A stretch of DNA of 64,000 bases, taken from positions 62,001 through 126,000 of the forward strand of contig JACRMS010000020.1 of NCBI GenBank assembly GCA_016214845.1, written 5' to 3'. The notes under the pieces were generated by a model, which worked only from the letters and a program-made list of their open reading frames with translations, made no database searches and was not told the origin of the DNA. Made by a program: the position numbers and the translations under genes. The DNA comes from Nitrospirota bacterium (GTDB lineage: Bacteria; Nitrospirota; Thermodesulfovibrionia; UBA6902). Positions 3,684 to 4,505 of this stretch are shown here, in pieces (the stretch's first letter is position 1; each line of letters begins with the position of its first letter).

Positions 3684-3762
3684 ATCCACAGATGTCGCAG
3701 ATTACACAGATTAAATAAAAGTCTCCAGGGAAAATCTGCGTCATCTGTGCAATCTGTGGATT
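3684..3762. repeat. CAGATT-type palindromic repeat between hypB and hypE
   Basis: An imperfect inverted repeat. The left arm starts ATCCACAGATGTCGCAGATT and the right arm ends CAATCTGTGGATT, with a short loop. The same element recurs at 7217-7295, 36397-36462 and 44596-44676, and a diverged one lies at 7903-7954. Its right part is translated as the last residues of HypB (IHRLHR) and contains the hypB stop codon. Confidence 0.8.
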
Positions 3763-4505
3763 AAAAATTTAATCCACTCATCCATTCCTTCCCCGGTCTT
3801 TGATGATACTTCAAGAATATTCAGAGAAGGATTCAGGGACAGCGCATCTTTTTTTATCTTCTGCATATCAAAATCAAAATATTGCACGAGATCGGTCTTT
3901 GAGATGATAAGCAACTGTGCGGTCTTGATGGCCTTCGGGTATTTCAGCGGCTTGTCATGACCTTCGGGAACTGATATGAGCACAACCCTCAAATGCTCGC
4001 CGAGGTCAAAGAATGAAGGGCACACGAGATTGCCCACGTTTTCTATGAAGAGTATATCCAGTCTTTTGCCGTTTAAACTATGCTCAAGTGAATGGAACCC
4101 TTTGTGAACAAGGATGGAATCCAGATGACACGCTCCTCCGGTGGTAAGCTGTACAGCGGGTACGCCTTTTTTCCTGATCCTCTCGGCATCGAGGTCTGTC
4201 TCGATGTCGCCTTCAAGCACCCCGATATTGATCTCGCCTTTCAGCGCGTCAATGGTCTTTTCAAGCAGCGTGGTCTTGCCGGAGCCGGGGGAGCTTATGA
4301 TATTTATCGCGAAGATCCCGTCTTCGTCAAAGTGCTTCCTGTTTCCGGCGGCGGCATCTTCGTTTGCTTTGAGAAGGCTCTGGTTCACGTCTACAACTTT
4401 ATTTTGTAAAATCCCCCCTCGCCCCCCTTTTTCAAAGGGGGGGTGGGGGGATTTTGTATCATGACTATGATCATGGCTGTGACCGCATCCGCACACGTCA
4501 CACAT
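3741..4505 (-). CDS. hypB: Hydrogenase/urease nickel-incorporation GTPase HypB
   Basis: A 254-residue SIMIBI GTPase that delivers nickel to [NiFe]-hydrogenase together with HypA. The N-terminus MCDVCGCGHSHDHSHD is a metal-binding Cys/His stretch. The G1 loop is SSPGSGKTT (about residues 72-80), followed by VLEGDIETD, TTGGACHLD (metal-binding Cys), IENVGNLVCP and SKTDL (G4). Between the His-rich tail and the GTPase domain, residues about 17-32 (KSPHPPFEKGGRGG) are encoded by a palindromic repeat, and the C-terminal IHRLHR by another. The ATG overlaps the hypA end by 8 bp, indicating translational coupling. Confidence 0.97.
   Translation of the reverse strand: MCDVCGCGHSHDHSHDTKSPHPPFEKGGRGGILQNKVVDVNQSLLKANEDAAAGNRKHFDEDGIFAINIISSPGSGKTTLLEKTIDALKGEINIGVLEGDIETDLDAERIRKKGVPAVQLTTGGACHLDSILVHKGFHSLEHSLNGKRLDILFIENVGNLVCPSFFDLGEHLRVVLISVPEGHDKPLKYPKAIKTAQLLIISKTDLVQYFDFDMQKIKKDALSLNPSLNILEVSSKTGEGMDEWIKFLIHRLHR
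4406..4456. repeat. PPFEKGG-type palindrome inserted in frame in hypB
   Basis: A hairpin-forming element with arms AAAATCCCCCCTCGCCCCCC and GGGGGGGTGGGGGGATTTT around a TTTTTCAAA centre. It lies wholly inside hypB, and its length keeps the reading frame. It encodes a charged, Pro/Gly-rich insert between the metal-binding N-terminus and the GTPase domain. Confidence 0.85.

Follow-up and report, generated by a model that had tools for sequence, protein, structure and literature searches.

What is a palindromic repeat doing inside the reading frame of a conserved hydrogenase maturation gene, and what could have brought it there? The window, by which we mean the whole 64,000-nt stretch of contig JACRMS010000020.1 that was analysed (Nitrospirota bacterium; its genome is G000 below), carries on its minus strand a 254-aa open reading frame (3741-4505) encoding the hydrogenase nickel incorporation GTPase HypB, as identified by Pfam (cobW/HypB/UreG, E = 3e-25) and NCBIfam (TIGR00073 hypB, 277 bits versus a cut-off of 121). 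An inverted-repeat search combined with shuffles located a solo copy of a 48-nt palindromic repeat at 4408-4455 (no strand assigned), which an earlier note, made from the letters of the sequence, had placed at 4406-4456. The left (4408-4429) and right (4434-4455) arms, both given on the plus strand, are 22 nt each, 86% complementary and separated by a loop of 4 nt, and the hypB frame reads through the hairpin to give KSPHPPFEKGGRGGIL; the translated hairpin described in that note is therefore real. The order of its parts is a C-tail, 2-3 nt, a C6/G6 hairpin, 2-3 nt and a G-tail (AAAATCCCCCC..GGGGGGATTTT), the copy itself being one hairpin with a tail at each side. A half-palindrome pattern that tolerates up to 3 mismatches gave three overlapping matches in the window, all at this hairpin, with 0.00 expected from 100 dinucleotide shuffles. 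The 8-nt direct repeat ATTTTGTA, read in the sequence at 4401-4408 and 4451-4458 (no strand assigned), lies at both edges of the palindrome, which it overlaps, and is a possible target-site duplication; it was not seen at the hypB copy of genome G008.

HypB was matched in 49 of 61 genomes, and 30 fetched HypB loci were compared. The insert site follows the Cys/His-rich N-terminus and precedes the GTPase domain. A peptide encoded by a linker palindrome was found in 8 of the 30 genes (G000, G006 as a remnant, G008, G042, G036, G018, G032 and G019) and was missing from the other 22, so that the segment is not shared by all relatives and the in-frame insertion proposed in the earlier note is borne out. 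The AAAATCCCC type is common to G000, G008 and G042, and a second repeat type occupies a slightly different codon in G036, G018, G032 and G019. On a HypB tree computed with the insert removed, the linker palindrome requires at least five gains or losses, with 5 to 8 for shuffled labels. Since at least two repeat types are present and at least five gains or losses are needed, the linker was hit more than once, which fits the idea of tolerated sites.

Further copies, the other expectation raised from the first look at hypB, are present inside and outside genes. In the genome of the window the pattern matched 19 times, at 14 distinct places, some intragenic and others intergenic, with no match for the reversed-pattern control. 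Of the 61 genomes, 48 contain the type-A pattern (none for the control), with a maximum of 198 copies in G005; a type B pattern showed no excess over its reversed control. The anatomy of the family is constant: C-tract tail, short spacer, hairpin. By eye, and uncounted, L003, L009 and L018 are arranged as tail-hairpin-hairpin-tail, inverted doublets whose tails face outward. The idea that the units are open in all six frames, which would ease in-frame insertion, is unsupported by open-frame counts, with a mean of 4.16 of six frames open per unit (all six in 29/173) compared with 3.84 in far windows (9/153) and 4.71 in shuffles (44/173). As a separate observation, a ketosynthase-like ORF of the same genome (L006) contains the peptide HSRESGNP, which is typical of CGTC-type palindromes.

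The first lead to a partner gene was a copy in a methylase gene, in which an extra domain is flanked by two palindromes. This domain is DUF559 (PF04480), which was matched in 36 of 61 genomes. Forty-nine loci of the relatives were counted, comprising the full-length DUF559 genes and L078 (partial, over 75 positions); the count excludes 20 other partial loci, which were read only, and matches fused to helicases, such as L022 and L079. A second set came from a scan of named genomes, with 80 DUF559 loci of which 74 had flanks of sufficient length. A locus was scored as matched if its two flanks were more alike than in all 40 shuffles. Matched flanks were found at 44/49 loci in relatives and 67/74 in named genomes, and windows 700 bp further out gave 1/42 and 2/62, respectively. 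When the 3' flank was swapped between loci, the match fell to 9/49 and 26/74. A rerun per phylum with a different shuffle gave 66 matched loci of 74, spread across 13 named phyla, among them Candidatus Melainabacteria (20/20), Pseudomonadota (11/16), Thermodesulfobacteriota (5/5) and Chloroflexota (5/6).

The shared flanking DNA consists of the same kind of unit as in hypB. Hairpin-tail units flank DUF559 at both sides at 45/49 and 59/74 loci (control 2/103), with tails pointing inward at both sides in 34 of these 45 and 32 of these 59. A strict hairpin detector found, at the 49 loci, hairpins at two sides in 25, at one side in 16 and at none in 8, and a loosened version was two-sided at 38/49 and 26/74 loci with controls of 0/90 and 0/128; as short arms or mismatches are common in these hairpins, flank similarity took the place of the detectors. 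By eye, palindromes stand at both sides of DUF559 in Picosynechococcus sp. PCC 7002 (its pAQ6 copy), Azospirillum lipoferum 4B and Deinococcus sp. NW-56, and a C-tract unit at one side only in Synechocystis sp. B12 and E. coli KE47. In Synechocystis sp. B12 (L225, on a plasmid) and Picosynechococcus PCC 7002 (with L226 as the second locus) the DUF559 gene adjoins a DUF1156 gene.

Compared with the PDB, the DUF559 profile matched 3hrl (E = 6e-34) and 3r3p, 'Mobile intron protein' (E = 6e-5), which we take to be I-Bth0305I. In the DUF559 alignment (A1), residues E25, D54, E65, D67, H71 and D80 are invariant. A DUF559 gene is assigned to the EDxHD homing family of I-Bth0305I in an excerpt of PMC9403480, a Caulobacter DUF559 protein is treated as a Vsr-like repair enzyme in PMC12907096, and the recombination hotspots of Legionella include DUF559 and GIY-YIG segments according to an extract of PMC12308824.

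The methylase gene (N6_N4_Mtase DNA methylase) allowed one insertion site, ...IEVKPHV|VAVELTDF..., to be compared between genomes. The site is empty in G009, whose flanks are 93-95% identical, and in G003; it holds a solo palindrome in frame in G032, the complete palindrome-DUF559-palindrome arrangement in frame in G000, and a different hairpin, GTAGGGGCGCATGGCAATGCGCCC (GTAGGGGC-type), in G005 (L211, G005:C140). One methylase codon position was hit by different palindrome families, the DUF559 element of G000 and the hairpin of G005. DUF559 with palindrome-coded linkers was also found, by Pfam and NCBIfam profiles, in ORFs with PriA in two genomes at a similar position (L120:787-3291 and L125:787-3288) and with HydF (L154:961-2790), as well as in ORFs with PrmA, with KsgA plus GHMP kinase, with a TIGR03960 radical-SAM protein, with HsdS, and in further methylase ORFs (L021, L076, L084); Mod, too, carries a full element in frame. 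No intein domain was detected in the DUF559-carrying ORFs by a Pfam scan with E up to 1e-5.

Repeat type follows nuclease clade. By regular expressions on flank DNA, written after the flanks had been read, 42 of the 49 DUF559 loci were given eight tail types, and these change 10 times on the DUF559 tree compared with 24-32 times in 1000 shuffles. Physical linkage of gene and flank is enough to make the two co-vary, and what the test demonstrates is the cohesion of the unit, not recognition of the repeat by the enzyme. In a rank Mantel test the coefficient was 0.29 for all 105 loci together and 0.25 for the 63 from the other set, each with 0/1000 permutations as high; within the 42 relatives it was not significant (rho 0.09, 71/1000 permutations as high). 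Solo type-A copies had a median of 26 where a type-A nuclease is present (6 genomes) versus 6 where it is not (55 genomes; p = 0.0025), and solo type-C copies of 4 with the cognate nuclease versus 0 without (p = 0.0006), both uncorrected for kinship and with copies beside the nuclease included in the counts. High type-A counts were also found where no intact type-A nuclease was detected (G003, 115; G041, 80; G006, 64; G008, 63), and clade A is not represented in the genome of the window, where the two full-length copies of DUF559 belong to other clades.

We propose that the hypB insert is a non-autonomous, solo member of a family of mobile palindromic repeats whose full form reads [hairpin-tail]-DUF559 gene-[tail-hairpin], with DUF559 as a small Vsr/EDxHD-type nuclease and spread by cutting and repair; we give this reading a probability of roughly 0.6. 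What the data show directly are the matched palindromes around most stand-alone DUF559 genes in many phyla, the empty, solo and full states of the methylase site, and the agreement of repeat type with nuclease clade. From the profile match to 3r3p and the placement in the EDxHD family we infer cut-and-repair spread, and on sequence grounds the palindromes would be mobilised by the DUF559 nuclease. The nuclease would recognise the palindrome of its own type and make its cut there, close by, or at a target; repair of the break would copy the whole element, or the palindrome alone, into the cut, and in-frame insertions in flexible linkers, such as that of hypB, would survive.

The same arrangement could arise the other way round, if the palindromes are spread by some other process and their existing copies are invaded by DUF559 as a homing endonuclease gene, the palindrome being target and not cargo. 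The solo palindrome of G032, which lies exactly where the methylase gene of G000 has the full element, agrees with such homing, as do the likeness of the DUF559 profile to a homing endonuclease and the many solo copies without an intact cognate nuclease. Simple insertion, however, predicts two half palindromes or outward tails, and most loci have a whole hairpin per side with inward tails, which speaks against it; moreover, the spread of the palindrome itself would be left without explanation. We therefore consider this course of events unlikely, but a serious contender.

A nuclease of another family is paired with another class of palindrome. CGTC repeats, to which R. conorii RPE-4 and RPE-6 belong, are apparently without a dedicated transposase according to Di Nocera 2013 (PMC3733652). 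For GIY-YIG nucleases (PF01541), 70 small-ORF loci among the matches listed were taken, the 30 best-scoring and 40 more chosen mostly by score. Palindromes of the form GTCATT..AATC stand at both sides of 11/12 and 14/15 loci in two GIY-YIG subclades (25/27 in total), where motif and subclades were fixed after inspection of the data, which the 70-locus test partly re-uses. The remaining two loci of these subclades have a CGTC palindrome at one side. Among the other GIY-YIG loci, 0/43 had CGTC palindromes at both sides and one had them at one side, and among DUF559 loci the numbers were 0/129 and 7. Conversely, C-tract units were found by one and the same regular expression at both sides of 0/70 GIY-YIG loci versus 40/49 and 49/74 DUF559 loci. 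Far windows contained the CGTC motif in 7/29 cases for one subclade, 0/23 for the other and 2/77 for the rest; an earlier, narrower CGTC motif had been two-sided at 10 of the 70 GIY-YIG loci. The pairs of nuclease and palindrome thus dissociate doubly, DUF559 with C-tract versus the GIY-YIG subclades with CGTC.

In 24 genomes of other groups, CGTC palindromes bracketed 6 of 30 fetched GIY-YIG loci, including those in the genomes behind records of Bradyrhizobium cenepequi, Nitrospira, Hellea and Smithella. All six were among the 12 loci with 'GTLY' in the domain and none among the other 18, a grouping made by reading and post hoc; the script's grouping of the same 30 loci gave 4/8 and 2/22. By eye, the flank repeats of some small GIY-YIG genes (L231, L236, L240, L244, L256 and L257) resemble pieces of tRNA genes, as if these nucleases were inserting at tRNA genes.

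REP/REPIN sequences are short palindromes that form doublets and bracket the gene of their presumed mobiliser, RAYT (Bertels and Rainey 2011, PMC3116915; Di Nocera 2013, PMC3733652). The present family is similar in its dispersed short palindromes, its doublets with outward tails and the one gene flanked by repeats, and the copies could on these features be REP/REPINs with RAYT, a HUH tyrosine transposase, as their mobiliser. The bracketed gene here, however, codes for a Vsr/EDxHD nuclease (DUF559) and not for a HUH transposase, and the hypB copy has a C-tract tail in place of the GTAG tag. Both PF01797 genes of the window's genome (2/2) are free of C-tract units in the flanks examined, and RAYT was rejected as the partner in this genome; movement by RAYT is accordingly improbable. 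Still less credible is that the palindromes beside DUF559 serve small genes as transcription terminators or regulatory hairpins: they are strong hairpins near gene ends, but they occur on both sides with the tail inward, even when the nuclease is an in-frame part of a larger ORF, and the regular expression that detects them yields no two-sided pair at any of the 70 GIY-YIG loci. That the HypB peptide is simply part of a low-complexity Pro/Gly linker and the palindrome incidental, for which its position in a variable linker would speak, is refuted for practical purposes by the 22 HypB genes without it and by the recurrence of the same DNA throughout this genome and of the type-A pattern in most others, with empty controls.

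Other known systems share part of these features with the DUF559 elements. The mitochondrial double-hairpin elements are likewise GC-rich hairpins scattered in genomes, although in an organelle setting, and we know of no DUF559 partner for these. Free-standing EDxHD homing endonucleases (I-Bth0305I, PDB 3r3p) have a related nuclease profile, and a site empty in one genome (G009) and occupied in another (G000) is also in keeping with them; unlike these, no intron or intein was found here, and DUF559 has on either side hairpin repeats of which many solo copies exist as well. With the Rickettsia palindromes, to which the earlier note had likened the hypB hairpin, the family shares in-frame insertion in conserved protein genes (here hypB and the methylase gene). 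A kinship in sequence did not hold, since the hypB copy is of the C-tract kind and lacks the CGTC end of RPE-4 and RPE-6 and the CCA tail, as defined in PMC3733652, and the partners of CGTC repeats here are GIY-YIG nucleases, not DUF559. In the open-licence literature searched, no paper tied DUF559/COG2852 or GIY-YIG nucleases to these repeats, and in a 2025 REP survey (PMC12306157) the terms endonuclease, transposase and GIY-YIG are all absent from the main text.

The HypB hairpin thus leads to a testable answer to the question of what moves dispersed palindromes without a transposase. Tentatively, and at slightly less than even odds, dispersed bacterial palindromes, protein-coding ones included, may form a class of mobile elements that need no transposase and are driven by small stand-alone nucleases, DUF559 acting on C-tract palindromes and a GIY-YIG subclade on those of the CGTC class (Rickettsia RPE-4/-6, Neisseria dRS3), with each clade spreading its own type by cutting and repair and with whole nuclease elements able to live in frame within conserved proteins. 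The pairing provides candidate enzymes for both palindrome superfamilies, C-tract and CGTC, and would give a function to a domain still called 'unknown' (DUF559), the genes of which can nest in frame in PriA and HydF. The nuclease-bearing full-length form suggests what spreads protein-coding palindromes in bacteria.
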